Under the pieces are notes generated by a model. It was not told the DNA's origin and did no database searches. It was given only the letters and a program-made list of their open reading frames with translations. Made by a program: the position numbers and the translations under genes. This document shows positions 33,184 to 52,515 of a stretch of DNA of 64,000 nt, piece after piece. How positions within the stretch are numbered: position 1 is the stretch's first letter; each line of letters begins with the position of its first letter. The stretch comes from Cellulophaga sp. 20_2_10 (GTDB lineage: Bacteria > Bacteroidota > Bacteroidia > Flavobacteriales > Flavobacteriaceae): the NCBI RefSeq assembly GCF_023476645.1, contig NZ_JAMCOJ010000001.1, forward strand, positions 124,001-188,000, written 5' to 3'.

Positions 33184-33192
33184 AACAAAAGA

Positions 33193-34455: not shown

Positions 34456-34525
34456 ATGGAAGTATTTAGGTTTAGGGTGTAAAGATACAATGTAAACAAA
34501 TAAAAAACACATTTAGTAATTAATA

Positions 34526-35567: not shown

Positions 35568-36785
35568 ATGAAGCCAGAATCAATATTACATTTAGATTTA
35601 GACACCTTTTTTGTGTCTTGTGAACGCTTAATTGACTCAAAGTTAGCAAAGCGACCTCTTTTAGTTGGAGGCACGGGAGACAGAGGTGTTGTGGCTGCGT
35701 GTAGTTATGAAACTAGAAGGTTTGGAGTACACTCTGGTATGGCTATGAAATTAGCAAAACAACTTTGCCCAGAAGCAACAGTAATTAGAGGAGACTCTAG
35801 TATTTATACAAAACACTCGCAAACTGTTACTCAGATTATAAAAGAACGTGTGCCCTTGTTTGAAAAAGCAAGTATAGACGAGTTTTATGCAGATTTAACG
35901 GGTATGGACAAGTTTTTTGGTACGTATAAATTTGCAACAGAATTACGCAATACCATCATAAAAGAAACGGGTTTGCCCATCTCTTTTGGGTTATCATCCA
36001 ATAAAATTGTTTCTAAAGTTGCAACTGGTGAGGCTAAGCCTAATAACCAAATGCGGGTAGATAATGGTTTAGAAAAGCAATTTTTAGCACCGTTATCAAT
36101 TCAGAAAATACCATCAGTAGGCACAAAAACATACCAAACACTGCGCAATTTAGGAATTACCACAGTGCAAATAGTACAAGAAATGCCAGTAGAAATGTTG
36201 GTGAGTGCGTTGGGTGTAAAAGGAGAAATAATATGGAAACGCGCTAATGGTATAGACAATCCACCGCTTATTCCTTTTCATGAACGAAAATCTATCTCTA
36301 CAGAGCGCACATTTACAAAAGACACTACCAATATGGTGCAGCTAAAAACCACATTAACTGCAATGGCAGAAAATTTAGCGTATCAATTGCGTAGAGCAGA
36401 TAAATTAACAGCCTGTATTTCTGTACGGTTGCGTTATTCGGATTTTCAAACGTATTCCAAACAAGTAAAAATACCTTATACAAGTGCAGACCATATTCTT
36501 ATTCCTAGAATTTTAGAATTGTTTGAGCGCTTGTATGATAGACGTTTATTGATACGATTAGTAGGCGTTAGGTTTACAGATATCGTTACAGGAAATTATC
36601 AAATTAACTTATTTGATGATACTGAAGAAATGCTAAACCTGTATGATGCTATGGATCATATTCGTGAAAAATACGGAGAAAAAAGTATTATGAGAGCCAC
36701 CTCTATGGGCGCAAAAACCATAGGTCGTTTTCATAACCCGTTTAGCGGTGAACCTCCAATAGTTTTAGCACACAGAAAACAATAA
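35568..36785 (+). CDS. dinB: DNA polymerase IV (Y-family)
   Basis: The 405-residue protein has the Y-family motifs: the first catalytic Asp in HLDLDTFFVSCERL (Asp10), and SIDEFYADLTG at residues 102-112 with Asp104 and Glu105. Thumb-domain helix-hairpin-helix sequence IQKIPSVGTKTYQTLRNLGI and a full little-finger region follow. It copies past damaged bases. The stop codon overlaps the start of the DnaE-type gene by one base, so the two are made together. SOS-linked expression is implied by the context. Confidence 0.92.
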   Translation: MKPESILHLDLDTFFVSCERLIDSKLAKRPLLVGGTGDRGVVAACSYETRRFGVHSGMAMKLAKQLCPEATVIRGDSSIYTKHSQTVTQIIKERVPLFEKASIDEFYADLTGMDKFFGTYKFATELRNTIIKETGLPISFGLSSNKIVSKVATGEAKPNNQMRVDNGLEKQFLAPLSIQKIPSVGTKTYQTLRNLGITTVQIVQEMPVEMLVSALGVKGEIIWKRANGIDNPPLIPFHERKSISTERTFTKDTTNMVQLKTTLTAMAENLAYQLRRADKLTACISVRLRYSDFQTYSKQVKIPYTSADHILIPRILELFERLYDRRLLIRLVGVRFTDIVTGNYQINLFDDTEEMLNLYDAMDHIREKYGEKSIMRATSMGAKTIGRFHNPFSGEPPIVLAHRKQ

Positions 36786-39700
36786 TGTATTTAAATTGCC
36801 ACTCATACTACTCCCTACGTTTTGGTACATTTTCAGAAGTAGATCTTTTAGAAATGGCCAAAGGCTTTGGTGTGTCTTGTTTGGCCTTAACAGATATAAA
36901 TAATACGTCTGCCTGTTTAAACTTTATTCGTACATCTAAAGCGTACGGTATAAAACCAGTTGTGGGTATCGATTTTAGAAACGGAGCAGAACAATTGTAT
37001 GTTGGTTTGGCCAAAAATAATGAAGGTTTTAAGGCCTTGAATGATTTTTTATCATTGCATTCTCATACATCACAAGATTTACCTAAAGAAGCACCAGAGC
37101 TTGCAAATACGTATTTTATTTATCCTTTTGAAAAGGTTTTACAATTAGAGAAAACAGAATTTAAACCCAATGAATACATAGGCATATCTGTAGAGAATTT
37201 AAGACGATTGCCATTTTCTAAATACAAATCTTATGTAGAAAAATTAGTAATTCAGCAACCAGTTACATTTAGAAACAAGAGAGATTTTAATGCGCACCGT
37301 TTGTTAAGAGCAATTGCAAACAATACGCTTTTAAGTAGATTACAACAAACAGAAGAAGGCAGTCCGTCTGAAAAAATGCTCCCCATGAAGGAGTTATTGG
37401 CGGTGTATAACGATTTTCCTTTTATTGCAGAAAACACAAAAAAACTACTGTCTGCCTGTTCTATCAATTTTGGCTTTGGAGAAAGCAGAACCTCTCAAAA
37501 TCAGCACGTATTTGGAGCCTCTAAAGAAACCGATTTTGAGTATCTAAATGAGCTTTGTAGTATTGGGTTACCAAAACGATATTCTACTATTACTAATGCC
37601 GTTACAAAGCGTTTAGAAGTGGAGCTTAGAACAATTAGAGAAATGGATTTTGTATCCTATTTTTTAATTAATCACGAAATTGTATCCTATGCAAATTCCA
37701 AAGGCTATTTACACGTTGGTCGTGGTAGTGGTGCAAATAGTATTGTGGCGTACATAATTGGTATTACAGACGTAGACCCTATAGAGTTAGACCTTTATTT
37801 TGAGCGTTTTATTAATCCTTACCGGGCTTCTCCTCCAGATTTTGATATCGATTTTAGTTGGAAAGATAGGGCAGATGTTACGGCTCATATTTTTAAACGC
37901 TTTAAAAACACCGCTTTATTAGCAACCTACAACACTTTTAAATACAGGGCAGTTGTTAGGGAATTGGGCAAAGTATTTGGTTTGCCTAAAGAAGAAATAG
38001 ACAAATTATGTAAAGGTCATTTTTCTGTAAATGATATAGATGAAATGAGCAAACTGGTTTTAAAATACAGTGCACTTATTAAAGGCTTTCCTAATTATAT
38101 AAGTGTACACTCGGCCGGTATTTTAATATTAGAAAAGCCAATACATTACTATTCTGCAACAGATTTACCGCCTAAAGGTTTCCCTACAGTACAGTTTGAT
38201 ATGAATATAGCTGAAGATGTAGGTGTTTTTAAGTTTGATATTTTAGGGCAACGAGGTTTGGCCAAAATAAAAGATGCCATAGACATTATTAAAGAAAATA
38301 GGCCAGAGGTAGGTGATATAGATATTACTCAGGTTGAAAAATTTAAAGTAGATAAAAACATCAACAAACTATTAAGTCAAGGTAGAGCAATAGGAGCTTA
38401 TTATGTAGAGTCTCCTGCTATGCGTGGTTTAATGAGTAAATTAGAGGTAGACAATTATTTAGGTTTGGTTGCCGCAAGTTCTGTAATTAGACCAGGCGTT
38501 TCTAGCTCTGGTATGAAGAATGAATATATTAGAAGACACCGAGATCCAAACAGACGCAAACAAGCCAATCCTATTTTGGCAGACATAATGCCCGAAACCT
38601 ATGGTATAATGGTATACCAAGAAGATGTTTTAAAAGTAGCCAACCAGTTTGCAGATTTAGACTTAGGAGAAGCAGATGTATTGCGTAGGGGAATGAGCGG
38701 TAAGTTTAGATCTAGAGAAGAGTTTACACGGGTAGAAAACAAGTTTAAAGCAAACTGCAAAGCAAAAGGTTACACAGACCAATTAACCACCACCGTTTGG
38801 GAGCAAATAGCAAGTTTTGCGGGCTATGCATTTGCAAAAGGTCATTCTGCATCTTATGCCGTAGAAAGTTACCAGAGTATGTATTTAAAGTGTTACTACC
38901 CATTAGAATTTATGGTAGCCGTATTAAATAATGGAGGAGGATTTTATTCCGCAGAACATTACATACACGAGGCTCGTATGTGGGGAGCAAGTATACACCC
39001 GCCTTGTATTAATAATAGCAATAACCATAATATAATTAAGGGTAAAAATATTTACTTGGGTTTTGGATATTTAAAAAATTTAGAGAAACTAGTCATACAA
39101 CGTTTGCTTACAGAACGGCAGTTGTATGGTGAGTTTAGTTCTTTGGATGATTTTATAGATCGTATTGCCATAAGCATAGAGCAGTTGTCTATTTTAATAA
39201 GAATAGGAGCTTTTAGCTTTACTAAATTACAGAAAAACCAATTGCACTGGCAAGCAATTTTTAAACTGAATTCATCTAAAAAAAGGAATACAAACCCCAG
39301 TTTATTTAAGCCAACACATAGAAATTTTGAGTTGCCAGTACTAGAACATTCTTGGTTAGAAGATGCGTATGACCAAATGGAGCTTTTGGGTTTTCCGTTG
39401 TATAGTTATTTTGATCTAATTTCTGAAAAACTACTTAGCAACACAAAAGCAGCAGAGATGAAAAACAATGCATACAAAGACGTTTTATTGTATGGCATTT
39501 TGGTGAACACACGTTTTAATACCACAAAGAATAACAAACATATGCGTTTTAGCACGTTTATAGACCAAGAAGGTACTTATTTTGATGTGGTACACTTTAC
39601 CAAAGTAGTAGACAAATACCCTATAACAGGTATTGGTGTGTATGCCTGTTATGGTAAAGTAACAGAAGAATTTGGACACTTTAGTATAGCTGCCATTTGG

Positions 39701-39787
39701 ACACGGAAAATTGCACTACAAGGAGACCCTAGAGCATTAGACAAACCAACATTTAAAAGTGTAAAAGAAAAGGGCACTCATAACTAA
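36785..39787 (+). CDS. DnaE-type DNA polymerase III alpha subunit (translesion, DnaE2-like)
   Basis: The 1000-residue C-family polymerase is shorter than the replicative enzyme (about 1150). Catalytic aspartates lie in PDFDIDFSW (Asp354, Asp356) and KFDILG (Asp485). The N-terminal PHP region begins YLNCHSYYSLRFG where most DnaE proteins have H-x-H; Asn4 replaces the first His, so this PHP domain is probably not an active nuclease. A helix-hairpin-helix and a partial OB fold are near the C-terminus. Together with dinB it should form an error-prone repair unit. Confidence 0.88.
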   Translation: MYLNCHSYYSLRFGTFSEVDLLEMAKGFGVSCLALTDINNTSACLNFIRTSKAYGIKPVVGIDFRNGAEQLYVGLAKNNEGFKALNDFLSLHSHTSQDLPKEAPELANTYFIYPFEKVLQLEKTEFKPNEYIGISVENLRRLPFSKYKSYVEKLVIQQPVTFRNKRDFNAHRLLRAIANNTLLSRLQQTEEGSPSEKMLPMKELLAVYNDFPFIAENTKKLLSACSINFGFGESRTSQNQHVFGASKETDFEYLNELCSIGLPKRYSTITNAVTKRLEVELRTIREMDFVSYFLINHEIVSYANSKGYLHVGRGSGANSIVAYIIGITDVDPIELDLYFERFINPYRASPPDFDIDFSWKDRADVTAHIFKRFKNTALLATYNTFKYRAVVRELGKVFGLPKEEIDKLCKGHFSVNDIDEMSKLVLKYSALIKGFPNYISVHSAGILILEKPIHYYSATDLPPKGFPTVQFDMNIAEDVGVFKFDILGQRGLAKIKDAIDIIKENRPEVGDIDITQVEKFKVDKNINKLLSQGRAIGAYYVESPAMRGLMSKLEVDNYLGLVAASSVIRPGVSSSGMKNEYIRRHRDPNRRKQANPILADIMPETYGIMVYQEDVLKVANQFADLDLGEADVLRRGMSGKFRSREEFTRVENKFKANCKAKGYTDQLTTTVWEQIASFAGYAFAKGHSASYAVESYQSMYLKCYYPLEFMVAVLNNGGGFYSAEHYIHEARMWGASIHPPCINNSNNHNIIKGKNIYLGFGYLKNLEKLVIQRLLTERQLYGEFSSLDDFIDRIAISIEQLSILIRIGAFSFTKLQKNQLHWQAIFKLNSSKKRNTNPSLFKPTHRNFELPVLEHSWLEDAYDQMELLGFPLYSYFDLISEKLLSNTKAAEMKNNAYKDVLLYGILVNTRFNTTKNNKHMRFSTFIDQEGTYFDVVHFTKVVDKYPITGIGVYACYGKVTEEFGHFSIAAIWTRKIALQGDPRALDKPTFKSVKEKGTHN

Positions 39788-39815
39788 TTTTATACCATTT
39801 ATAAGTGAATTTTAG

Positions 39816-39896
39816 CCAATTACACATTTCCGTAATTGGAGTAAAAAAAATAGTTTTACATTGTACAACAATTAAGAAAAAGAGGTTTTTTCTTAA
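39816..39896. repeat. Two hairpins between dnaE-type and SIR2 genes
   Basis: CCAATTAC pairs with GTAATTGG (39816-39839, 8-base loop), and TTAAGAAAAA pairs exactly with TTTTTCTTAA (39872-39896, 5-base loop). The second can act as a terminator in either direction because the arms are A/T runs. They mark the left edge of the accessory block. Confidence 0.6.
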
Positions 39897-40002
39897 AAAT
39901 AAACGACATAATAAAGGGAACAAAACTTCTGCATATTCTGCCCTATTGGTGGAATAAGTAAGCTCTAGTTCCGCATATAAATAAGTTGTAAAACACTAAA
40001 AA

Positions 40003-41295
40003 ATGCTACAAGAAAACAAAAAAAGATTAAATAAAGTTTTACGAGATTTTAATATTTCGTTAGATAGAGCTATTGATTTTCTTGCAAGTAAGGGACACGA
40101 AATAGAAGCAAGACCAACAACTAAGATATCTGAAGAAGAATATAACCTGCTATATGAAGAATATGGTAAAAGGTTACTTAATAGCAATAAAGCTATTAAT
40201 CCAAATTTTTTCCTTAGAACAAATGAACTAAATGAGAAATTAATTTCTCTTGGAAAAACAATTTTAGATAAAGATTTAGAGGAAAAAGTTAATACTACTT
40301 TGAAAGCAAACATAAGTAGACAACAAGCTTTAAAAAACATTAGCAAATCTTATAAAAATGAAAAATTAGTACTTGTACTTGGAGCAGGGATTTCTTTAGA
40401 ATTTGGTGTAGCATCTTGGAATGTTCTTTTACAGAATTTAATGGTACATACTATAGAAAAAGAAAATAAAGTTTCAAATATATTATCTACACTTTTTAAT
40501 AATATATTCACTCCTAATCCACTAATATCAGGTCGATATTTACAAGATTATTTTGAGAACAATGAAGTTTCGTTCGAAGAAATGGTAAGAAGTGTTTTAT
40601 ACTCTGAAGTTGACAAAGACCAAGAATCAAAATTACTTAATGAAATAGTACGAATATGTGTCGCTCCTGGAAAGAGCCCTAATTTAGACTCCATAATAAC
40701 CTATAATTTCGATGATATTTTAGAACACAAACTTGATAAAACAAATATGGAAATTCCTTATAAGTCTATTTTTGGAATTGGAATGGATATTAAAAATGAT
40801 GAATTACCAATATATCACGTACACGGTTTTCTGCCTGAAAATAAAAAATTAGATAAATCTAACATAATAACATTTGGAGAAAGTAATTATCATGAACAAT
40901 ATTCAGACATTTATAGCTGGAATAATATTGTTCAAATCAATAAGTTCAGAGAAAACACTTGTATTTTCATTGGTAGTTCGTTAACTGATCCAAATATTAG
41001 AAGACTTTTAGATATAGCACTAAAACAAAAAGGAAATAGTAAAGAGCATCATTATATATTTAAGAAAAAAATAAAACCAGAATATTTACTTGAACAATTA
41101 GATACTCAAAGTTCTGTTGACGACATTAATTCTTTAAATAATAAAGACAAAAATAATTTAATAGAACTTTTAATAAACATACACGCAAGATTTGAAGAAA
41201 ATGATTCTGCTTCATTTGGAGTAAAAACTATATGGGTTAATGACTGGCAAGAAATTCCAGATATATTAAAAAAAATCAGAGAAAGCGCTGTATAA
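40003..41295 (+). CDS. SIR2-family protein with IF-2 N-terminal-like domain
   Basis: Residues 8-52 (LNKVLRDFNISLDRAIDFLA, then GHEIEARPTTKISEEEYNLL) closely follow the N-terminal domain of Bacteroidota translation initiation factor IF-2. Residues 121-340 hold a SIR2_2-type NAD-binding fold: GAGIS at 127-131, TYNFDD with Asn235, HVHG with His274, and GSSLTDPN at 324-331. SIR2 proteins of this type in phage defence degrade NAD+ and stop infected cells. NAD+ hydrolysis is inferred from the family; the IF-2-like domain may read the translation state or a phage factor. No signal peptide. It is followed by a helicase-nuclease gene after 436 bases. Confidence 0.8.
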   Translation: MLQENKKRLNKVLRDFNISLDRAIDFLASKGHEIEARPTTKISEEEYNLLYEEYGKRLLNSNKAINPNFFLRTNELNEKLISLGKTILDKDLEEKVNTTLKANISRQQALKNISKSYKNEKLVLVLGAGISLEFGVASWNVLLQNLMVHTIEKENKVSNILSTLFNNIFTPNPLISGRYLQDYFENNEVSFEEMVRSVLYSEVDKDQESKLLNEIVRICVAPGKSPNLDSIITYNFDDILEHKLDKTNMEIPYKSIFGIGMDIKNDELPIYHVHGFLPENKKLDKSNIITFGESNYHEQYSDIYSWNNIVQINKFRENTCIFIGSSLTDPNIRRLLDIALKQKGNSKEHHYIFKKKIKPEYLLEQLDTQSSVDDINSLNNKDKNNLIELLINIHARFEENDSASFGVKTIWVNDWQEIPDILKKIRESAV

Positions 41296-41731
41296 CAACG
41301 GCTATATAATTAATACTGGTTTAAGTGTTTAATCAAAAGTTTAGTGTGTTTTTTATAGAGTCCTCCAAATATAAAACTTGGCAATTTAAAAAGAAAAGAT
41401 AAAACAAAATACAAAAAAATAGCTTGTCTTTAATCCAAAAGGTATCGCTTTTCAATAGAGCTACTTTTCATATTCGGAGACGTAGTAAATAATTTTTAGC
41501 AAAATTTAATTGAAGATAATATAACAGACTATTAAGTGTTGAGTCAAATATTATTACAATACTCATTGTGAAAATATTGAGTGCGTTATTTCTGGGGATT
41601 GGAATTTTAAATTGGATGGCATACCAAAATTTATATCCCTAGCGATTTTTAAACTATTTTTTTAAGATGAAATATAATACTTGTAATATAAATACTAATT
41701 TTAAAGAAATTTTATCTTAAGAATCTAATAA
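41296..41731. other. Intergenic region between SIR2 and helicase genes
   Basis: The 436-base stretch is very AT-rich and shows no credible gene. It begins TATAACAACGGC right after the SIR2 stop, similar to junction sequences seen between the downstream cassettes. No strong terminator or operator was found. A separate promoter for the helicase is therefore possible. Confidence 0.5.
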
Positions 41732-44700
41732 ATGAAAACTACTGGTAAATGGTTAAACTATTACAGAGCATCATTAATTGATGGTAATAAAAGAGACAAA
41801 AAACTCCTTACTCGTAATTTCATTGAACGCAACACAAGTATCATTTCCAGTTTTAATGAAGACGAGATTAAAAGTTTTTGGAAAGATGCTAAAGAAGAGG
41901 AGGAAACCTTATTTAACGAAATTGAAATAGCACCTTTTTATATTACATCAGAAGTTGAGCACGGCTTTAGAAAAGGATCTTCAAAAAAACACTTTCCTTT
42001 CTGGATAAAGGCTCGTGTGAACAGAGAAGGAGTACTAAGCCCTCCAAATGACCCCAAACCTCCTGAGTTCCTTAGAGAATTTTTAAGTCCCAACCCTGGT
42101 AATTCCCCTACAATAGCTAGTTTAAAAAAGCTAGACCGCTTAATATCAAAAACTGAAATCAGTATTGAAAACTGGGATACATACTGGAACGACTGTGAGA
42201 AATTCTTTTATAGAGTTACAAATAGAAAATTTAACGAATATCACGAAGAAGATATCTATCAATTTTCAATAGCTGAGAGTAGTGACGATTCAGTTATACA
42301 AAATGTATTACAGCTATATAATGCATTAACAGATAAAAATAATAAAACGGAGTATCCTTTATTAAATAATGTTTTAATAGCAGAACCAGAGGCTAATAAT
42401 TATGAATTAACAGAGGAAGAAATCTTTCTTAACCCAAATCATTTTGGACAAATGAGTGGTGAGTTTCCTCTATCTGAATCTCAACGTGTAGCTTTTGCAC
42501 AATTTAGCTCTAAATACAATAAAAAAGCATTTGCAGTTAATGGCCCTCCTGGTACAGGTAAAACGTTCATTTTACAAAGTTTTATAGCTAATATTATAAG
42601 CGAATCTGTACTAAACGGTGCAGAGGCTCCTCTTATCATAGGTAGTTCTACAAACAACCAAGCAATTACAAACATTCTGGATAGTATGAGCTTAGATGGT
42701 GGGGGTATTTTAAATAGCAGATGGATTCCCGATGTAAACTCTTTTGGTCTTTACCTCTGTTCAAAAGCCAAAGCTGAAACAGGACAATATCAATCTGCTA
42801 CATCAAAGTACTTAAATGATTTCTTTTTAGAGAAATTAGAGGATTACTCAAAAATAGTTGGATACAAACATTTTTTTTTAAAACAATTAAAAACACAGTT
42901 TAGGACGGAGACCATAGATAAGGATACTGATGTTAAAGCTTTTTTACTAAAAAGAATAAAGGCACTTAAAACTACTATTAATAAGACAATTAGTATAGCG
43001 CTAAAAAAACATCAGATACCTGAATTATTAACAGACAAAAACTATAATAATACAAAGGGATTAATTTCAAAAATAGCTCAACTCAAAGAGGAGATAATTA
43101 AAGCTTCGAATAAAGAGGAACAGTTAAAAAGTGTATTAAACCAGTTAGAAGAGAAAAACAATAATTTTCCTGTGCACATAAGACTATTGCCTTTGGGAAA
43201 ATTTCAAGAAATAAAAATCAACTCTTTTAAATTAATTGCTCATCCGTTTATTAATGAGTTCACTGGTTTTAATAACTGGAGTAGCTATCTTAAAGTTTAT
43301 AGTAGGTTAGAAAAAGTTTTACTAAACAATATTAAACAACGAGAAAACCTAGAATATAATCTAAATGAGCTACTTCTTTTAGTTGAAGAAATAAAGGCAA
43401 GAAACAGTGTTTATGAAAACTTTAAATCAAAATGGAATAACACGTATTCTCACAAATGGGAAGCATTAATAAAGATTACCAAAGAAGAGTATAACAATCT
43501 TGATATATTAAGAGATACAGCCGTAAAACTAGATATTTCTTATAGATATGAACTTTTTTGGCTCTCTACTCACTACAGGGAGTGGGAATATATAGAGGAA
43601 TTAGAAAACAAAAAAGAAGATGAAGAAAGGTATAAAAAAGAAAACAAAGAGTTAGGAGAAAAAAGTTATGCTAAAAAGCTTAGACGTATTGCTAAAATTT
43701 CACCTTTATACATTGCTACCTTTCATTCTTTACCAAAATTTCTAATGTATTATAATCACAAAGAGGGAGAGAAATATTACACAGAGTTATTTGATTTAAT
43801 GATTGTAGATGAATCTGGTCAAGTGTCTCCTGAAGTAGCAATACCGTCATTATCCTTAACAAAAAAGATACTAACTGTTGGTGATGTGCATCAGATAGAA
43901 CCGGTGTGGAATGTTACAAAAAACATAGATTTTTTTAATGCTAAAAAATATGATGTAATTACATCTGAAGATGAGTTTGAAAGAAATGCTACTCTCGGCT
44001 TTAATGCTTCAAACGGAAATCTAATGAGGATAATTAGGAATGCTACTCCATTCACATATAAACATCAAAATAATGAGTTGGAAAAAGGAGCTTATTTATT
44101 AGAACACAGAAGATGTTTAAATTCCATAGCTGAGTATTCTAAAGATAATATTTACAGTGGTTCATTAAAATTAATGGGAGGTGAAAGTAATGACAAGTAT
44201 AAAATACCACCTCTTGGTTATATACATGTAAATGGAAGCGCCGAAAAGCATAATGGTAGTAGTAAGAAGAATGTAAAGGAAGCCAATGCCGTTGTACAAT
44301 GGATTATTAGTAAAAAAGCTGAAATTGAAGCAGCGTACGCTAAGCCGATTGATGAAGTCTTAGCTGTAGTAACACCTTTTGCTGCACAAAAAACAATTAT
44401 TAAAGGGATTTTAAGAAAACAATTAGGGAAAGAAATATCAGAAAAAATAATTATAGGAACAGTACATGCTCTTCAAGGAGCAGAAAGAGCTATTATTTTA
44501 TTCTCTAGTGTACATGGCTTAGAAGATACCGCATTGTTTTTTGATTTTGAGGGGAAATTTAATATGCTTAATGTGGCCCTTACTCGTGCAAAACACTCTT
44601 TTATAGTAATTGGTAATATGGGCGTATTTAATCCTAAAGATAAAACACCTTCAGGACGACTAGCAGAAAAATTATTTTCTAACGAATCATACGCTTTAGA

Positions 44701-45217
44701 TGAACGGTTTGTATTTAAATCAGACCTGGTTTACCAGCCTACTCCCCAACATAAAGTTGATCGTATTAATGATTTAGACACGCATCGGAAAATATTAAAA
44801 AGGTGTTTTGATTCTGTAGAAAAGGAATTAATCATCTTTTCTCCTTTCCTTTCTATCAACGCTATTAAGGATGATAATATAATATCTTTAATTAATGAGT
44901 GTATTACTAAAGATATAAAAATAACAATTCTAACGGACAACAACCTTGACAAAAAAGATGGTCAATTAAAGAAACATAGCAAACTGGGTAGAGAAGCTAT
45001 TTCTGGAACTAAAGCTAAATTAGTAATTATTAATGGTATTCATAATAAAACCATCTGTATCGACAATAAAGTTTTAATTGAAGGTTCGTTTAATTGGCTT
45101 TCAGCCACTAGAGATGTGAACAGTCCATACCATAGAAATGAAACCTCGGTTATTATTCAAGGTGACACAGTTGAAAACGAAATAAATAAAATAAAAGATA
45201 AATTCTCAATTAAGTAA
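41732..45217 (+). CDS. SF1 (AAA_11/12, Upf1-like) helicase fused to phospholipase D-like domain
   Basis: Walker A GPPGTGKT lies at residues 271-278 and a DESGQ Walker B at 693-697. The motifs GDVHQIEPVW, LLEHRRC, GTVHALQGAER and NVALTRAKHSF complete a superfamily 1B helicase core. A 400-residue helical insert separates Walker A from B. The last about 120 residues carry one HKD-type motif (His1104, Lys1106, Asp1111 in IHNKTICID), with GSFNWLSA: a PLD nuclease or phosphodiesterase that would act as a dimer. The N-terminal 260 residues are not recognised. Likely a defence or DNA-processing enzyme. Confidence 0.85.
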   Translation: MKTTGKWLNYYRASLIDGNKRDKKLLTRNFIERNTSIISSFNEDEIKSFWKDAKEEEETLFNEIEIAPFYITSEVEHGFRKGSSKKHFPFWIKARVNREGVLSPPNDPKPPEFLREFLSPNPGNSPTIASLKKLDRLISKTEISIENWDTYWNDCEKFFYRVTNRKFNEYHEEDIYQFSIAESSDDSVIQNVLQLYNALTDKNNKTEYPLLNNVLIAEPEANNYELTEEEIFLNPNHFGQMSGEFPLSESQRVAFAQFSSKYNKKAFAVNGPPGTGKTFILQSFIANIISESVLNGAEAPLIIGSSTNNQAITNILDSMSLDGGGILNSRWIPDVNSFGLYLCSKAKAETGQYQSATSKYLNDFFLEKLEDYSKIVGYKHFFLKQLKTQFRTETIDKDTDVKAFLLKRIKALKTTINKTISIALKKHQIPELLTDKNYNNTKGLISKIAQLKEEIIKASNKEEQLKSVLNQLEEKNNNFPVHIRLLPLGKFQEIKINSFKLIAHPFINEFTGFNNWSSYLKVYSRLEKVLLNNIKQRENLEYNLNELLLLVEEIKARNSVYENFKSKWNNTYSHKWEALIKITKEEYNNLDILRDTAVKLDISYRYELFWLSTHYREWEYIEELENKKEDEERYKKENKELGEKSYAKKLRRIAKISPLYIATFHSLPKFLMYYNHKEGEKYYTELFDLMIVDESGQVSPEVAIPSLSLTKKILTVGDVHQIEPVWNVTKNIDFFNAKKYDVITSEDEFERNATLGFNASNGNLMRIIRNATPFTYKHQNNELEKGAYLLEHRRCLNSIAEYSKDNIYSGSLKLMGGESNDKYKIPPLGYIHVNGSAEKHNGSSKKNVKEANAVVQWIISKKAEIEAAYAKPIDEVLAVVTPFAAQKTIIKGILRKQLGKEISEKIIIGTVHALQGAERAIILFSSVHGLEDTALFFDFEGKFNMLNVALTRAKHSFIVIGNMGVFNPKDKTPSGRLAEKLFSNESYALDERFVFKSDLVYQPTPQHKVDRINDLDTHRKILKRCFDSVEKELIIFSPFLSINAIKDDNIISLINECITKDIKITILTDNNLDKKDGQLKKHSKLGREAISGTKAKLVIINGIHNKTICIDNKVLIEGSFNWLSATRDVNSPYHRNETSVIIQGDTVENEINKIKDKFSIK

Positions 45218-45440
45218 AACGTTTGCTAAAAAGGTATCAACATAAAGCAATTTGGGCTTAACCGAAAAGTTTGTAAATTTTCAAAAGGTTCGCTAAATTT
45301 AAAAATTTGGCATTTTCAGTCAAAAAGATAAATACAAAATATTTATATATGGCTCGTGCATAACCCAAAACGATAGGGCTTATAAATTGTTCTATGTTTG
45401 TTAAACGGAACGTTAGGAGTCATTAGAAACCGAATACGTA
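45218..45440. repeat. Cassette-junction-like intergenic repeat
   Basis: This stretch contains short inverted arms (GCTAAATTT with AAATTTGGC around 45291-45312, one G-T pair) and ends with GTTAGGAGTCATTAGAAACC at 45412-45431. The latter resembles the right ends of related repeats at 46199 and 47236. An unusually good Shine-Dalgarno (AAAAAGGAG) follows. Such flavobacterial junctions separate single genes of accessory clusters. Identification as a cassette end is inferred from the resemblance, not proven. Confidence 0.5.
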
Positions 45441-45453
45441 AAAAGGAGTAATT

Positions 45454-46170
45454 ATGAAAAAAACAATCTGTATACTAATTTTTTTGATTGTAAATTATTA
45501 TGGTCTAGCACAAGATGCCGTTTTTAGACATCTTACAAAAAATGTTATGGGTGGTGACTATGAAATAACGCTGACACTCAAAGAAAATAAGGAGTTTTTA
45601 TATAGTGAGATAGACGACCAAGAATGTTATGTAAACACAGGTGTATCTTTGGGTAAATGGGAACAAAAAGGGAAAAATATTATTCTAAAAGTTGCCGATA
45701 CAATCCAACCAAAAATTAAAATAGAAAAACCATTTCTCAAAAAAGATACTTTGACAATTTTTTTCAAAAAAATGAATGATTGTGATTTTTTGAACAAGGT
45801 GTTACATACACCTTGTTACGATGATAAAGATGAAGATTATTTTAATTATTACGGTGAGAGAGATTTACATTTTTACGATAAAGACGGCAAAGAAATTAGT
45901 ATTGGATTACAAAATAAAGCCAAAATAGAAATTCCAATACATAAAAAAATTGCTAAAATTGATTTTTATTTCCCTAATGATTGGTCACCAAATAGTGCTA
46001 AATTATCGCTTAAAGTGTCTGATAGTACAGGGCAAATTTACATAAGCAATATTTCAGGTTATCTTCAATCAAATTTTGATAGTTCTACTTTTGTTCTGAA
46101 TAAAAACCATATTTTATTGAATGGATTTCGTATTAAAAAAGTAAAATTAAAACGGCAGAAAAAGAATTAA
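45454..46170 (+). CDS. Secreted hypothetical protein (238 aa)
   Basis: A signal peptide (TICILIFLIVNYYGLAQ) is followed by a lipocalin-like beta stretch (GGDYEITLTLKENKEFLYSE, SLGKWEQKGKNIILKVADT) and a second beta domain near the C-terminus (IAKIDFYFPNDWSPNSAKLS). The pattern resembles small exported proteins with a folded beta barrel. A strong AGGAG ribosome site lies 8 bases before the ATG, which is rare in this genome. It sits between two junction repeats. Confidence 0.6.
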   Translation: MKKTICILIFLIVNYYGLAQDAVFRHLTKNVMGGDYEITLTLKENKEFLYSEIDDQECYVNTGVSLGKWEQKGKNIILKVADTIQPKIKIEKPFLKKDTLTIFFKKMNDCDFLNKVLHTPCYDDKDEDYFNYYGERDLHFYDKDGKEISIGLQNKAKIEIPIHKKIAKIDFYFPNDWSPNSAKLSLKVSDSTGQIYISNISGYLQSNFDSSTFVLNKNHILLNGFRIKKVKLKRQKKN

Positions 46171-46198
46171 GTTACAAAGAGTACAGACACAACAAAGT

Positions 46199-46303
46199 GT
46201 AGGGATTATTAGAAACTTCTATTCCGTATTTAATTGTTAAATTAGGGCTTAAAATACGCTGTAAACCACATACAAGCGAGCTACAAACACGGTGGTCACA
46301 ATT
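46199..46303 (+). repeat. Junction repeat, copy 1
   Basis: This 105-base stretch aligns with 47236-47329 at roughly four of five positions. It starts GTAGGGATTATTAGAAA, contains TTAAAATACGCT and ends GGTGGTCACAATT right before the next start codon. Repeated junctions in front of unrelated genes suggest exchange of the genes between fixed ends. Confidence 0.7.
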
Positions 46304-47173
46304 ATGAAAAGACTATTAATTATACTATTCCTTTTTCAATTAAATTATCTTTTTAGTCAAGATGCATTATACGTTTCTGCTAAGAATGGTTTAATTGTAA
46401 GAAGTGGACCAGATAAAACATATGATAAAGTTGGAAAACTTGATTATGCTGAGAAAATAACTTTTTTTCAAAGCACAAAACGATATGATGAGATAACTGA
46501 TAACGGTGTTGTACTAAAAGGGGAATGGTATCATATAAGTGCAAATGATATCAATTCAAAAACAATAGTAGGTTATGTTTTTAATGGCTTCCTAACTAAT
46601 AAAACCTTAAAAAAGAAAATAAACTATTATGAATTTAAGCCTGAAAAAAATCTTGATTTTAAATTAGCATCTTTTAGCATTTACGATGTCTATAAATTAG
46701 ATACGTTAAAGATAGTTAGTGGTTATTATGAACATAAAGATGCAAAAATGGTCTTGCCTAATACGGAGAATGATTACGGTGTTAGACTTTTAATGGTAAA
46801 CGAACAGCATAAAATAATTTATCAATCACAAGGGTTTTTCGAAGCATATTCATTTGAACCTCATTTTTTTAAAAATAACAAATCAGATAAAATTATTATT
46901 GTTTGCCAGTTATCATCCGAATATTGCTACGGGGGACAAGCATTCATATTAGAAAATGGAAAAATAAAATATATGGGATTATTAGATATTGAACCACAAA
47001 CTGAAGAAAAATGTTTAATTGACATATTAAAAATAAATGAATTTTCTAATGAATTGATCTTCTCTTTTAATTCAAAAAAATTAGTATTAGAACCAGGCAA
47101 AAGGGGCATTTATATTAAAAATAATGGAACTACGTACAACTATAGTAATGGGAAATTACTATTGAAAAAATAA
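46304..47173 (+). CDS. Secreted SH3-domain protein (289 aa)
   Basis: I use ATG 46304; a GTG in the repeat opens the frame earlier. A signal peptide (RLLIILFLFQLNYLFSQ) precedes an SH3b domain (about residues 23-105: GLIVRSGPDKTYDKVGKL, GEWYHISAND, GYVFNGFL). The remainder is a beta-rich domain with several Cys (CQLSSEYCYGGQAFIL). It is a shorter relative of the SH3 protein at 19676. Probable periplasmic protein; function unknown. Confidence 0.65.
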   Translation: MKRLLIILFLFQLNYLFSQDALYVSAKNGLIVRSGPDKTYDKVGKLDYAEKITFFQSTKRYDEITDNGVVLKGEWYHISANDINSKTIVGYVFNGFLTNKTLKKKINYYEFKPEKNLDFKLASFSIYDVYKLDTLKIVSGYYEHKDAKMVLPNTENDYGVRLLMVNEQHKIIYQSQGFFEAYSFEPHFFKNNKSDKIIIVCQLSSEYCYGGQAFILENGKIKYMGLLDIEPQTEEKCLIDILKINEFSNELIFSFNSKKLVLEPGKRGIYIKNNGTTYNYSNGKLLLKK

Positions 47174-47235
47174 ACTACTGCCAAACCCATATATAATTTA
47201 TTGCTTGGTTTTAGCCAATTTACAAACCCTAAAGC

Positions 47236-47329
47236 GTAGGGACTATTAGAAATTACTATGTAGTATTTAATTGCTAAATTAGGTGCTTAAAATACGCTAC
47301 AAACCATATACAAACAGGGTGGCCATAAT
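47236..47329 (+). repeat. Junction repeat, copy 2
   Basis: Second copy of the repeat at 46199. It reads GTAGGGACTATTAGAAA, GCTAAATTAGG, TTAAAATACGCTACAAACC and GGTGGCCATAAT, and ends just before the SGNH hydrolase gene. A third, shorter match lies at 48377-48410 (CGCTACAAACTATATATAAC). Confidence 0.7.
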
Positions 47330-47342
47330 AAAAAAACTAAAA

Positions 47343-48239
47343 ATGAATAGACTACTAATGCTACTATTTTTATGTGCTACTATTTCTTCCTCCGCTCAAG
47401 AAGAAAGCACGTTTAATGATAAACAGTTTATTGAATATCTTACAAATTCATTAAAAAATGATGAAGTAAATACTGAAAATAAAAATACCTTTTTAAAAGT
47501 ATCTAGAAATTACTGGAACGATAGAAAATTAGATTACAACGTACATCCTGAGAATTATAAAAAAGCAATGTCTTTGTTTCATAAGAATCAAGAAAAATTT
47601 AAGGAAATAGAGCGGGTCCCTAATACTAAAAGGAATCACAGGATAGAAGATGCTGTTAAAAATTTCCAGAATTTTGATGATAGAAACACATTTTCAAAAA
47701 ATCCAATCTTATTTGTAGGAAGTTCAAGCATTGCTGGTTGGAAAACTTCAATTTCATTTCCTGAATTCTATGTTATGAATAGAGGAATTGGAGGAATGGA
47801 TATGCACGAAATAATTTATTACTATGATATTTTAATAAAAAAACACGCTCCTTCAATAGTTGCTATTTATTGTGATATTGATATTGAACAAGGGAAATCT
47901 CCACAAGAATCTGTTGCTGCATTTAAAGAACTAACAAGAATTATTAAAGCTGACTTCCCTAATACAGTAATACTACTCCTTTCTATGAAACCTGTAATGA
48001 TTGATGATTTTATAGGCAGAGACATACGTACTAATAAAATGATTACAAATGACCAACTGCTAAAGTTTAGTACTGAAGAAAACAATGTTGAATTTATTGA
48101 CCTAGCTTCTCCTATGTTAAATACAGAAGGAACATTAAAAACCGAAATCTTTATTGAAGACGGAATGCATTTAAATCAGTTAGGTTATGATATTTGGAAT
48201 CCAATAGTTAGAACTGCTTTACAAAAAATACATAAGTAA
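47343..48239 (+). CDS. Secreted SGNH/GDSL-type hydrolase-like protein
   Basis: The ATG at 47343 begins a signal peptide (RLLMLLFLCATISSSAQ); the upstream frame is repeat DNA. The body fits an SGNH hydrolase: ILFVGSSSIAGW (nucleophile Ser), NRGIGGMDM (Gly block) and DGMHLNQLGYDIW (Asp-His block). The third block, usually G-x-N-D, reads YCDIDIEQG, so its conserved Asn is lost. Either the oxyanion pocket is different or the enzyme is weak. Expected to hydrolyse esters in the periplasm. Confidence 0.7.
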   Translation: MNRLLMLLFLCATISSSAQEESTFNDKQFIEYLTNSLKNDEVNTENKNTFLKVSRNYWNDRKLDYNVHPENYKKAMSLFHKNQEKFKEIERVPNTKRNHRIEDAVKNFQNFDDRNTFSKNPILFVGSSSIAGWKTSISFPEFYVMNRGIGGMDMHEIIYYYDILIKKHAPSIVAIYCDIDIEQGKSPQESVAAFKELTRIIKADFPNTVILLLSMKPVMIDDFIGRDIRTNKMITNDQLLKFSTEENNVEFIDLASPMLNTEGTLKTEIFIEDGMHLNQLGYDIWNPIVRTALQKIHK

Positions 48240-48298
48240 AAACAAAGAACTAGTATAAAAAATAAGTTAACCTCATTAATTTAAGACATTTATAGATT

Positions 48299-48338
48299 AA
48301 GCTCATAGGCCCTAAAACAGGTTCTTTGAGCTTTTTTT
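48299..48338 (+). terminator. Intrinsic terminator
   Basis: AAGCTCA pairs with TGAGCTT at the base of a longer hairpin whose upper part (AGGCCCT with AGGTTCT, one mismatch) is also paired. Seven T follow. It closes the SGNH gene. Confidence 0.75.
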
Positions 48339-48376
48339 ATTGGTTATCTTCTATTTGGTTTATAGTTGCTTACACC

Positions 48377-48410
48377 CGCTACAAACTATATATAACAAGG
48401 TTGTACAACA
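48377..48410 (+). repeat. Short junction repeat, copy 3
   Basis: CGCTACAAACTATATATAAC continues into AAGGTTGTACAACA and resembles the right end of the repeats at 46199 and 47236. It precedes the serine hydrolase gene by about 140 bases. Confidence 0.45.
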
Positions 48411-48547
48411 TTAAAAAGAAACTACGCATATACAAGATCTATGGTCAATAGATTTAATACTTTATTCTTTTTGTAACTCAAGCCTATTATTTGTCGTCCT
48501 ACAAACAAATAACATTTAGAAAAAATGAAAAGACCAATTTAAAAACT

Positions 48548-50233
48548 ATGTCAAATATAAAAATGATGATTAAAAACAGTATAGCATTACTTAGTGTCCT
48601 TTTTTCCTTTTTAACCTATGCTCAAGATATGGCAGAATATACAAGTGGTTGGGAAGGCAAAATTGAAAATTCAAAATCATTCAACTTAAAAGTTGAAATA
48701 GAAAATCTAGGACTTGAAACAGCTAGATTCAAAATTTCGAATACTAAAAATATTATTGACTATCCATTTGATTTTAAAAGCACGTCAATAGTAAAAATAC
48801 CATTTGCAGAAAATTATTCTTTTGAGGGTGTACTTTCTGAAAATGGAAAAGAGATTAACGGCTTTATTAAATCTGGTTTATTACTTTATCATGTAAGGTT
48901 AACACTGTCAAATTCAAATTCGTTTGTAGGTGTTTGGAATGTAGTCATGGCAGACAACTTAAAGTCTGATAAATTCTATTTAAGCCTAGAAAATGGATTG
49001 GAAAACGACTATGAGGCTTATCCTTTTTTTGGTGATACTACATTTACAGGAACTTGGTGTACCAATTTTGAAAAAGAAAATGATAGTTTGTTTTTTGAAG
49101 ATTTTAAAACAGGATTAAAGTTTAAAGGAAAATTACGTCCTCAAAAAATTATTTTAGGAATTTATATAGGCGATGGTTTAGTTACTCAAATCGATTTAAA
49201 AAAAACCAACACAGATTGGGAAATAGGCTTGTTCGATACCAATAGAAAGGAGAAAAACGTGGGAAACCTTGAACTTAAAGAAATGGAAAAACGTATCGCA
49301 AAAGATAGTTTTCCTAATACACATTCCGTTTTAATTTCAAGAAAGGGTAAGCTTGTATACGAAAACTATTTTGAGGGTTACAATTCCAATATTCCTCATC
49401 AGATGAAATCAGCTTCAAAAAGTATATCGTCTGCCATAGTCGGAATAGCAAAAGACAAGGCATTATTTAAAAATGTTGAGCAATCAATTTTCGAGTTTTT
49501 ACCTCATAAATATCAAACACATAAAGACAGTTTAAAATCAAAAATAAATATACAGAGCCTTTTAACAATGAGTTCTGGAATAGATGCTATTGATTATGGT
49601 ATTAACGCCAATCCAAAATCACCTGCTGTAGAAGATAATTTTCAGATGACCAAAGACTGGACAGAAACAATATTAGATTCTAAAATGATTAATAGTCCAA
49701 ATACGAAAGCCAATTATGGTTCTGCCAATCCCTATCTTCTTGGTGTGGCAATGGACTCTATAGTTTCAGAATCATTGGCATTGTTTATGGATAAAAATTT
49801 ATTTCGCCCACTTAAAATTTCAAATTACGTAATTCAATCAGATTTAAAAGGAACCCCATACTTTGGTGGTGGAATGTATCTTACACCAAAAGATATGCTC
49901 AAATTTGGAGAATTATACCTGAATAAAGGGAAATGGGGATCTAAACGAATTCTATCAAAAAAATGGGTTAAAAATTCCTTTAAAAATTATAGAAATTTAG
50001 AAAATGTATCAGAAAAAAATGGCTATGGTTATTTATGGTGGCATAATACCTACGAAACTAAAGGAAAACCAATAAAATCTATTGAAGCAAGAGGTAATGG
50101 TGGCCAGTATATTTTTGTTCTTCCTTCTTTAAAAACAGTTGTAGTTGTAACAGCTGGTAATTACAGAAATGGAAAAACACAACAACCTGAACTAGTTTTT
50201 GAAAAATATATTTTACCATATCTTAAAAATTAA
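48548..50233 (+). CDS. Secreted serine hydrolase of the beta-lactamase/class C type
   Basis: ATG 48548 is chosen; the TTG at 48491 extends the frame into the leader. A signal peptide (NSIALLSVLFSFLTYAQ) precedes an unassigned beta-rich domain of about 230 residues. The penicillin-binding-like hydrolase follows with SxxK in MKSASKSI, the YxN equivalent in YGSAN, and a late GNGGQYIFV block replacing the usual HxG. Class C beta-lactamase-like esterases or peptidases act on small ester, amide or peptide substrates; the exact one is unknown. Confidence 0.8.
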   Translation: MSNIKMMIKNSIALLSVLFSFLTYAQDMAEYTSGWEGKIENSKSFNLKVEIENLGLETARFKISNTKNIIDYPFDFKSTSIVKIPFAENYSFEGVLSENGKEINGFIKSGLLLYHVRLTLSNSNSFVGVWNVVMADNLKSDKFYLSLENGLENDYEAYPFFGDTTFTGTWCTNFEKENDSLFFEDFKTGLKFKGKLRPQKIILGIYIGDGLVTQIDLKKTNTDWEIGLFDTNRKEKNVGNLELKEMEKRIAKDSFPNTHSVLISRKGKLVYENYFEGYNSNIPHQMKSASKSISSAIVGIAKDKALFKNVEQSIFEFLPHKYQTHKDSLKSKINIQSLLTMSSGIDAIDYGINANPKSPAVEDNFQMTKDWTETILDSKMINSPNTKANYGSANPYLLGVAMDSIVSESLALFMDKNLFRPLKISNYVIQSDLKGTPYFGGGMYLTPKDMLKFGELYLNKGKWGSKRILSKKWVKNSFKNYRNLENVSEKNGYGYLWWHNTYETKGKPIKSIEARGNGGQYIFVLPSLKTVVVVTAGNYRNGKTQQPELVFEKYILPYLKN

Positions 50234-50373
50234 GGAAAGCCACTGGGTCTAAAAACAGCATTTATTATAATACTAGGAGGGAAGTAGTGTGCACGTTTAT
50301 CGGTATTTATTCTTTTTTAAGTCGTTTTTAAAATATTCTTTTTATCTTAAAAGGAAATATAAAAACATACATA

Positions 50374-52515
50374 TTGAAAAAAAATCTATTTCTAATCTTT
50401 CTTGTATGTTGCTATAGCTTCACTGTTTTCTCTCAAAGCAATTTAAATAAAGTAATAGATAGTGTTAATATATTAATTGTATTATCTAAAGAACAAAATT
50501 TAAAAGGGAACTATAAAGATGCGCTCAAGTATGCCACTTCAGCTGTGCAATATGCTACAACAAAAAAGGATAAATTACTACAGGCAAGGGCCTATGTAAG
50601 TTTAGCGAACACTTACCAGATAATTGATGATACCGATAATGCTAAAAAGTATTATAACATAGCATTAAATAAAGCTAAAAACACAGATAACTACTTTGTA
50701 AACGTAGCTAGCCTTAATGGACTAGGAAATATATACTCAAATGATTTTAGTACAGCAGATAAAGCCGCAGCTTATTTTGAGGCTTCAATAGTACACGCAT
50801 TAAAAGCAGGTAAAAATGAATATGCATTTTTAACGTATTTTAATATAGCTGGTATGTATTTAAATTTTGAAGATGCAGATAAAGCTTATCCATACATTAT
50901 AAAAGCAGAAGAGCAATTAACAAAAATTGATAAGGAAAAGCCCTTAAATGCTGCGCTGTTGAATTTAAATTTTGCCATATACTACAAGTTAAAAAAGAAT
51001 TATAAAGTTGCAGCAAACTATATAGAAAAAGCACGAGTACTAGGAGAACAGCACAAGCTTAATAGAGAACTAATAGATATTTATGATTTTAAACATGAAA
51101 TTCATCGGGAATTAGGTGAGTATGATTTAGCTATTGAGAGCCTTAAAAAACAGTATTACTATAAAGACCTAAACTTTAATGCTGAAAAAAACCTTCAAAT
51201 AGAAGAAGTTACAGCAAATTTTAAGGTCAATGAATTTAAGGAAGCAGCGAAAGCATCTAAGTTAAAAACCAATTATATAATTATAGTAGGTATTGGTTGC
51301 TTGTTATTTTTAAGTACATCTTTTTTAGTGTTTTATAATTACAAAAAACGCTTGTCTTTTGTAAAACTAGAGAAAAAGAATGAAGCACTTTTGCAGGCTA
51401 AAAATGAAGCTGAACGTGCTAATACACTAAAATCAGAATTATTAATAAATATTAGTCATGAGTTGCGCACACCATTATACGGAATTGTTGGTATTACAAA
51501 TATGCTTATAGAAGATAAAGCAGCAAAAAGCAATCAAGAAGGGCTCCTTAATTCTTTAAAATTTTCAGGAGACCATTTAAAGTCAGTTGTAAATAATATC
51601 CTAAGAATTCATGAGGTAGAATCTAATAGCGTTCGTTTAGAAATCACTAAGGTTAATTTACATTTGCTTTTAAAAAACATAGTAAGCTCTTTAAATTACT
51701 TAGCAGATCAACAAGAAACACAATTGGTATTAAACATTTCTAAAGATGTTTTAGAAGTCTACAATATTGATGGCGCTAATTTGTCTGAAATACTTATAAA
51801 ACTTATTGATAATGCTATAAAGTACACTAAAAATGGTGTTGTTGAAGTTGCCGTTAACTTGGTTAAAAGAGAAGAAAATAAAGATTTTATAGCGTTCAAG
51901 GTTTCAGATACAGGAGTTGGAATTTCTAAAAAAAATCTAGCTATGATTTTTGATAATTTTAAACAAGGAAATTCTGAAGAAAATACATCTTATGGCATTG
52001 GTCTAGGACTACCTATTGTTAGGCATTTAATAAAAATTATGGGCAGTACATTAGCTGTAACAAGTAATGTAGGTAAAGGTTCGCAGTTCTCATTTATAAT
52101 CGAATGCGAAGTTTTAAGGGATGATTTAAAAATAGAGCCTGTTTATAGTAAAAAGATCTTAAATATATTGGTTGTAGAAGACAATAAGATAAACCAACTT
52201 GTTACAAGTAAGCTAATTAAATCTCTTGGTTATACATGCACAATTGCAAAAAATGGATTAGAAGCTGTAAAATTATGTAACAGCAATGTTTATGATTTAA
52301 TACTTATGGATCTTAATATGCCAGTTATGAATGGTTTTGAAGCTTCAAAGACTATTAAAGCGAAGCATAAGGATATACCAATTATTGCATTAACAGCATT
52401 AGAAATTAGTGAGGTTAAAGAGCGATGTCAAAAAGCAGGTATTAATAGTATTACCAATAAACCAATAAGTAAAGAAGGCTTAGAAGATCTTATACAAATG
52501 AACGTATTAGATTAA
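50374..52515 (+). CDS. TPR hybrid sensor histidine kinase
   Basis: TTG start at 50374. A signal sequence (NLFLIFLVCCYSFTVFSQ) leads a TPR array (about residues 40-270), with one transmembrane helix (residues about 300-322). Then come HisKA with His362 in INISHELRTPLYG, HATPase with Asn480 (LIDNAIKYT) and DTGVGIS/GIGLGLP, and a C-terminal receiver with Asp646 (LILMDLNMP) and Lys696 (TNKPIS). It should pass phosphate within itself and to an HPt or regulator not seen nearby. Signal unknown. Confidence 0.9.
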   Translation: MKKNLFLIFLVCCYSFTVFSQSNLNKVIDSVNILIVLSKEQNLKGNYKDALKYATSAVQYATTKKDKLLQARAYVSLANTYQIIDDTDNAKKYYNIALNKAKNTDNYFVNVASLNGLGNIYSNDFSTADKAAAYFEASIVHALKAGKNEYAFLTYFNIAGMYLNFEDADKAYPYIIKAEEQLTKIDKEKPLNAALLNLNFAIYYKLKKNYKVAANYIEKARVLGEQHKLNRELIDIYDFKHEIHRELGEYDLAIESLKKQYYYKDLNFNAEKNLQIEEVTANFKVNEFKEAAKASKLKTNYIIIVGIGCLLFLSTSFLVFYNYKKRLSFVKLEKKNEALLQAKNEAERANTLKSELLINISHELRTPLYGIVGITNMLIEDKAAKSNQEGLLNSLKFSGDHLKSVVNNILRIHEVESNSVRLEITKVNLHLLLKNIVSSLNYLADQQETQLVLNISKDVLEVYNIDGANLSEILIKLIDNAIKYTKNGVVEVAVNLVKREENKDFIAFKVSDTGVGISKKNLAMIFDNFKQGNSEENTSYGIGLGLPIVRHLIKIMGSTLAVTSNVGKGSQFSFIIECEVLRDDLKIEPVYSKKILNILVVEDNKINQLVTSKLIKSLGYTCTIAKNGLEAVKLCNSNVYDLILMDLNMPVMNGFEASKTIKAKHKDIPIIALTALEISEVKERCQKAGINSITNKPISKEGLEDLIQMNVLD

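Follow-up and report, generated by a model that had tools for sequence, protein, structure and literature searches.

A SIR2 protein with an IF-2 N-terminal domain beside a Mokosh type II gene in Cellulophaga sp. 20_2_10, and recurrence of the domain on other defence-type proteins

We analysed a 64,000-nucleotide stretch of the genome of Cellulophaga sp. 20_2_10 (Flavobacteriaceae; contig NZ_JAMCOJ010000001.1, positions 124,001 to 188,000), here called the window, and followed up two large open reading frames (ORFs) within it. ORF1 encodes a protein in which a copy of the N-terminal domain of initiation factor IF-2 (IF2N) stands in front of a SIR2 domain, and ORF2 encodes MkoC, the protein of the Mokosh type II defence system. 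A first-pass annotation, made by a model from the letters alone, had described two large proteins encoded on the same strand with a gap of 436 bases, and both the gap and the coordinates it gave for the two ORFs were correct. ORF1 and its parts are as follows.

40003..41295, + strand: ORF1, the IF2N-SIR2 protein, 430 residues, an open frame matching Pfam SIR2_2 (E 5.9e-16) and PADLOC ThsA (E 2.5e-17)
40018..40170, + strand: IF2N (residues 6-56), the domain copied from the N-terminus of IF-2, 67% identical to host IF-2, with a model that matches IF2 residues 1-66
40312..41292, + strand: SIR2 core and conserved C-terminus (about residues 104-430), from alignments A2, A3 and A5, with a model near ThsA, KomC and DSR2
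40381..40395, + strand: GAGIS, NAD-binding motif (residues 127-131), with G127, A128, G129 and S131 almost unchanged across the 89 members
40699..40716, + strand: TYNFDD (residues 233-238) with the predicted catalytic Asn235; N235 and D237 invariant
40816..40827, + strand: HVHG (residues 272-275) with the predicted catalytic His; H272 and H274 invariant

Judged by sequence, the first 55 or so residues of ORF1 are the N-terminal domain of IF-2. Residues 6-56 aligned to the IF-2 of the host at E 2.4e-15, and residues 6-55 reached up to 78% identity with the IF-2 of other genera. The first-pass annotation had used the label IF-2-like in its title and left it at that, and the label proved apt. The domain was also modelled from 3 sequences (mean pLDDT 79). 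The three best structural matches of this model were the bacterial IF2 entries 4b48, 4b43 and 4kjz (about residues 1-66) at Z 7.3, 7.2 and 6.2, values below 8 that may reflect a common arrangement. The N2 subdomain of P. aeruginosa IF2 was the rank 5 match, and VIA-align 2 placed one non-IF2 chain, 8csh, above 7uiu. Foldseek gave no match to the model at E <=0.001, and IF2 entries ranked 2, 3 and 21. The origin of the domain in IF-2 is settled by the sequence identity, as such Z values alone would be insufficient. No match to the window IF2N was found among phage records or viral contigs, and only two plasmid records matched it, one annotated as infB and one unannotated. The N1 region of E. 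coli IF2 matched 12 records of plasmids and 3 of phages, which are labelled infB/IF-2 or carry no annotation. One unannotated match, in the UNVERIFIED record of Pseudomonas phage Y6 (L239, OQ572408.1), lies in a chromosomal-looking nusA-infB stretch that is probably host DNA.

Behind IF2N, ORF1 carries a SIR2 fold with an intact NAD site, as the first-pass annotation had recognised, with GAGIS at residue 127, TYNFD at 233 and HVHG at 272. N235, D237, H272 and H274 were unchanged across 89/89 members of the family (alignment A5). An AlphaFold model of ORF1 was built from 26 sequences (mean pLDDT 81), and its nearest solved folds included ThsA, KomC and DSR2, with ThsA 8bto as the best Foldseek match (E 1.4e-12). 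Sequence and model point to a SIR2 effector with intact catalytic motifs, which would be expected to act as an NADase, deplete NAD+ and restrict phage.

ORF1 shares the SIR2 fold and the Asn and His motifs with ThsA of Thoeris. ThsA carries a C-terminal SLOG domain, whereas ORF1 gave no SLOG match (Pfam, E up to 1), ends about 70 residues past its SIR2_2 match and has IF2N in front. No TIR domain of the kind expected for ThsB was seen in any of 9 proteins scanned from 35568 to 52515. KomC and DSR2 have their fold in common with ORF1 and differ in the N-terminal module, and no KomB-type partner was seen by ORF1. DSR1 and DSR2 exceed 1000 residues and have a long C-terminal sensor region, whereas ORF1 has only 430 residues, lacks such a C-terminal part and scored 17.6 bits with the NCBIfam Dsr1 model against a cut-off of 1400.

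Scanning genome contigs with the single ORF1 sequence returned no relative, and an alignment query then gave 130. In the family of 89 members that was aligned (A5; 26 of the 89 make up alignment A3), all match SIR2_2, 24 also match TIR_2 and 4 also match Mrr_N. IF2N is carried by 3/89, those of the window, Arenibacter latericius (L100) and Wenyingzhuangia (L101), and by reading of their sequences the N-termini of the remaining members are short and helical or of other kinds. Modules are interchangeable in the N-terminal slot of this SIR2 family, which may be filled by TIR, Mrr_N, a short helical segment, others or IF2N. The TIR-SIR2 and Mrr_N-SIR2 relatives have the core in common with ORF1 and differ in the module that fills the slot. 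In a tree of 22 members, which omits L105, L108, L119, L120, L121, L123 and L124 (motif absent) and all loci above L127, the three IF2N-SIR2 proteins formed one group with modest support (77/71), so a single capture suffices within the SIR2 family. No partner gene was conserved: the largest neighbour cluster, among those present in at least 3 of the 89 loci, comprised 5 loci, all on viral contigs. With no conserved neighbour, ORF1 looks like a one-gene effector.

Three other observations concern this family. The TIR in front of the SIR2 core in 24/89 members (e.g. L129, L135, L136, L141, L152, L170) places two NAD-handling domains in one protein, and one narrow literature search turned up no description of a TIR-SIR2 fusion. 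On four IMG/VR viral contigs (L180-L183), SIR2-core genes without IF2N sit amid apparent P2-type tail and lysis genes, resembling prophage defence cargo as judged by eye, without a profile search. A Lysinibacillus plasmid (L076, CP110805.1) holds a copy of the family in three pieces, annotated as separate ORFs.

By sequence comparison along its whole length, ORF2 is full-length MkoC of Mokosh type II, a known single-gene system. Its features are as follows.

41732..45217, + strand: ORF2, MkoC, Mokosh type II, 1161 residues, matching PADLOC PDLC03924 (E 4e-295)
42470..44620, + strand: superfamily 1 (SF1) helicase region of ORF2 (residues 247-963), matching Pfam AAA_11 and AAA_12, Walker A at 271
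44801..45190, + strand: PLD-like nuclease domain of ORF2 (residues 1024-1153), matching Pfam PLDc_2 (E 5.8e-10), HKD-type motif at 1104

The PADLOC MkoC profile spans residues 4-1158 of the 1161, and the motifs are intact, with the Walker A motif GPPGTGKT at 271, DESGQ at 693 and a complete HKD-type motif at 1104. The AAA_11 and AAA_12 matches and the C-terminal PLD-like domain agree with the first-pass description of an SF1 helicase ending in PLD. The available part of PMC11672841 describes Mokosh type II as one ORF with an N-terminal COG1112-type RNA helicase and a C-terminal PLD nuclease. ORF2 follows this plan over its full length, the helicase preceding the PLD, and no difference was found. 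Where SIR2-HerA would be expected to show a HerA-type protein, ORF2 is an SF1 helicase-PLD protein and none of the proteins scanned around ORF1 gave a HerA-type match; the DISARM protein DrmC was matched only at E 0.0085 and in the PLD part, with no DrmA or DrmB in ORF1 or ORF2. Matches to the MkoC profile (E 1e-60) were found in 9/298 family genomes, the window included. Four of the nine extend through the PLD end (window, G057, G288 and G094), four stop near profile position 963-979 and the match in G138 is partial. The four matches that end ahead of the PLD part are ORFs of 984-1001 residues (L045, L046, L047 and L048).

ORF1 and ORF2 are most likely two separate defence genes and not one unit, because ORF2 alone has the composition of a complete Mokosh type II gene and the two genes are unlinked in their relatives. 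An ORF1 relative was present in 0/8 of the other MkoC neighbourhoods (tblastn, E 1e-3; 15 kb each, 6 kb for G057). MkoC was present in 0/88 SIR2-family loci at E 1e-5 in the DNA covered, the loci being the best 80 of the 130 from named genomes and 8 from viral contigs, with flanks of up to 8 kb (named genomes) or 6 kb (viral contigs) per side and many contigs shorter. The first-pass annotation had proposed a candidate defence unit, to be abandoned if the pair rarely co-occurred, and the pair was rarely found side by side. What stands of that proposal is that each gene is of a defence type. Adjacency and a shared strand speak for a two-gene unit, but the unlinked relatives on both sides and the self-sufficient composition of ORF2 largely refute it, and we give this explanation almost no credence.

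IF2N recurs on seven unrelated defence-type architectures, the SIR2 of ORF1 included. A profile made from alignment A1 was run over 397 family genomes. More than one IF2N match was found in 10/397, and after each was read, IF2N was fused to a protein other than IF-2 in at least 7/397, a lower bound because no more than 15 candidates per genome were scored. In the window genome (G000) the domain is on SIR2. The others are an LRR-Roc-COR-TIR protein adjoining HsdM/HsdS genes (G002, L070), a TmtA-like (Tiamat-like) ATPase with two IF2N copies, the second at residues 139-206 (G269, L071), an AAA_15 ATPase adjoining type I restriction genes (G093, L072), an AAA_5 protein matching PDC-M26A (G291, L073), and an S1/MkoA-like helicase, BREX-linked through its place adjoining BrxL and PglZ in G076 (L074) and again in a second genome (G713, L093). 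The weakest architecture is a protein with an MkoB-like stretch and an adjacent MkoA-like gene, carrying a diverged IF2N (E 5.1e-9) in a genome of the same family from a separate phylum draw of 395 genomes (G506, L094). We take TmtA to be Tiamat, AriA to be PARIS and PDC to denote a candidate system. Fusions lie inside type I restriction operons at L070, L072 and L100. A PADLOC match at E < 1e-5 was obtained for 7/7 fusion proteins scanned (all but L093, L100 and L101) versus 2/10 other large window ORFs, which are smaller than several of the fusion proteins, and several of the fusion proteins match broad families of ATPases or helicases. The extra matches in G043 and G757 were split IF-2 by reading of the ORFs, and second matches in a ClpB-like ORF (G128) and a membrane-protein-like ORF (G750) were judged to be no fusions. 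Outside the family, a CSD-like protein encoded next to PglZ-like and BrxL-like genes weakly resembles IF2N at an internal position (G573, L097; E 0.004).

Sequence comparison suggests that IF2N was probably captured more than once. Each of 11 fusion IF2N domains has its nearest sequence among the IF-2s, which lead every other fusion by 3 to 17 points, in an unequal comparison of 11 domains with a biased panel of 84 IF-2s (44 from the loci of earlier matches and 40 hand-picked). A tree of 9 fusions and the 84 IF-2s, from which FUS_G269b and FUS_G506 were excluded (as also from the column counts), requires 7 changes of the fusion label (bootstrap 5-8), of which 2 are forced by branches with firm support, and grouping of the fusions in one clade is rejected only at p 0.045. 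Because the tree rests on 66 columns and has long branches, this evidence is weak. The domain is conserved as a protein while DNA identity is low, e.g. 81% protein versus 65% DNA, and in 9/9 fusions compared RLNKxL retains its R, N, K and second L, and RPTTK its TTK. Between IF2N-SIR2 relatives the ratio of nonsynonymous to synonymous substitution (dN/dS) of IF2N was 0.07 and 0.15 with the third pair saturated; dS was saturated in most pairs and YN00 gave no estimate for nearly all of them.

We give an even chance to the reading that IF2N, captured from IF-2, docks a SIR2 effector that destroys NAD+ on infection, the two genes being independent and merely side by side. We infer that IF2N would dock ORF1 on a partner of the N-terminus of IF-2, most likely NusA on RNA polymerase and possibly the 30S subunit. 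The docked SIR2 domain would be idle until infection disturbs the transcription-translation apparatus, and the activated domain would then destroy NAD+ and abort the infection. NusA/RNA polymerase or 30S docking is favoured because domain I of E. coli IF2 binds NusA and a NusA-like ORF precedes host infB. In the available part of PMC12297416, domain I of E. coli IF2 (the part that includes N1) co-purifies NusA alone and photo-cross-links to NusA in cells, and AlphaFold puts the IF2-NusA contact on N1 and the next two strands. The ORF immediately upstream of host infB reads as NusA. A broader proposal, to which we assign slightly less than an even chance, is that Flavobacteriaceae-type bacteria repeatedly graft IF2N onto unrelated antiphage proteins, as a shared interface (docking tag or decoy) to the hub of NusA, IF-2 and the ribosome, with phage takeover of host gene expression as the signal.

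Beyond the low Z values and the small PADLOC controls given above, several observations weigh against the docking reading. The host NusA ORF has 410 residues versus 495 in E. coli, so that KH2 and AR1, where AlphaFold placed the E. coli contact, may be partly missing. Bacteroidota IF2N and E. coli N1 are collinear but weakly alike by sequence (20% identity, hhalign E 0.033, probability 0.8%), and the IF2N profile searched against PDB sequences found no IF2 chain at E up to 1. A strictly host-matched tag predicts that the host IF-2 is the closest match, and for the window IF2N it ranked only 50/84. In the other genomes the host IF-2 ranked 2 (G269), 5 (G093), 9 (G713), 12 (G076), 19 (G291), 24 (G002) and 79 (G506) of the 84, and with ranks so scattered host matching is uneven.

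The main rival to docking, which we consider unlikely, holds that IF2N would be an integrated decoy, a bait for phage attack on the IF-2 N-terminus or its NusA contact, and that binding or modification of the bait would trigger the effector. Plant immune receptors carry integrated decoys, and IF2N resembles them as a piece of a host protein in immune proteins that was probably captured more than once. It fits a decoy that IF2N remains IF-2-like on effectors that are otherwise unrelated, and that in the window SIR2 family it fills a slot that holds other modules in relatives. No attacker of IF2N is known, however, and we know of no phage protein that targets an IF2N domain; the terms IF2, initiation factor and NusA are absent from the available part of PMC10914614, on ribosome-targeting phage proteins.

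It is less likely still that IF2N is a mere structural or expression leader, a captured promoter, ribosome-binding site or solubility tag with no specific partner. The SIR2, TIR, Tiamat-like, AAA_5 and MkoB-like proteins have it at their N-terminus or close to it, which would fit a leader. Against this, IF2N is internal in L072 (frame residues 265-332), L074 (66-133) and L093 (78-145) and occurs as a second copy in L071, and it is conserved as a protein at low DNA identity, which together make a mere leader unlikely. We regard as improbable a homotypic adaptor, in which IF2N on one protein would pair with IF2N on a partner. Effector-associated domains (EADs) are small, non-enzymatic and fused to different effectors according to the available part of PMC7159879, and IF2N is likewise a small adaptor-like domain common to different effectors. 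EADs pair with a copy on a core component, whereas the only other carrier of IF2N in the 8 fusion genomes (E 0.01) is IF-2, which makes pairing between dedicated proteins unlikely and leaves pairing with IF-2 itself as a possibility.

The surroundings of the two genes include one further feature.

39788..40002, + strand: structured leader preceding ORF1, fold z-score -3.4, no Rfam match

This segment folds at -41.1 kcal/mol, and 0/200 shuffles were equally low, so the hairpin-rich left edge of the first-pass annotation is unusually structured. The initial 300 bases of the gap between ORF1 and ORF2 showed no unusual structure (z +0.4). Rfam gave zero matches in 39000-49000, and a simple scan of 39700-46300 showed no excess of promoter-like or terminator-like sites. 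The cassette-like repeats in the same annotation are real but do not bracket the pair, as they lie downstream of ORF2. Repeats of about 100 bases at 46194-46308 and 47231-47335, with a partial copy at 48377-48417, precede successive accessory genes; two more copies occur in the genome, one of them inside the window, and there is a partial copy at G000:C6:30498-30557. An integron cassette array was rejected, with no integron integrase above the family cut-off in the genome. Upstream of ORF1 and ORF2 lies a DinB-like/DnaE-like polymerase pair, with a DUF4130 gene and a radical SAM gene (window 32413-34512) shortly upstream of that pair. The genes after the DnaE-like gene in two same-genus genomes checked (L237 and L238) differ from those of the window, so the site is an accessory spot. 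The position 3' of the DnaE-like gene (window 39787-40003; L237; L238) has different content in three same-genus genomes and is a possible insertion hotspot.

A full-text literature search, from which most subscription journals and bioRxiv preprints were absent, found no description of IF2N on defence proteins, and the terms did not occur in the available parts of PMC12839542 and PMC10914614. The system of ORF2 is already known, the SIR2 effector with an IF-2 domain adds a variation to a known type of protein, and the recurrence of the IF-2 module may turn out to go beyond that. Little is known, to our knowledge, of the way in which one-gene SIR2 effectors perceive infection, and a segment taken from an essential translation factor is a concrete candidate for a sensor surface. 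As IF2N is found on seven unrelated architectures, a result on the domain would inform all of them, and IF2N can be used to search Bacteroidota for new defence genes. Should IF2N prove to be a bait, bacteria would have a counterpart of the integrated decoys found in plant immune receptors.

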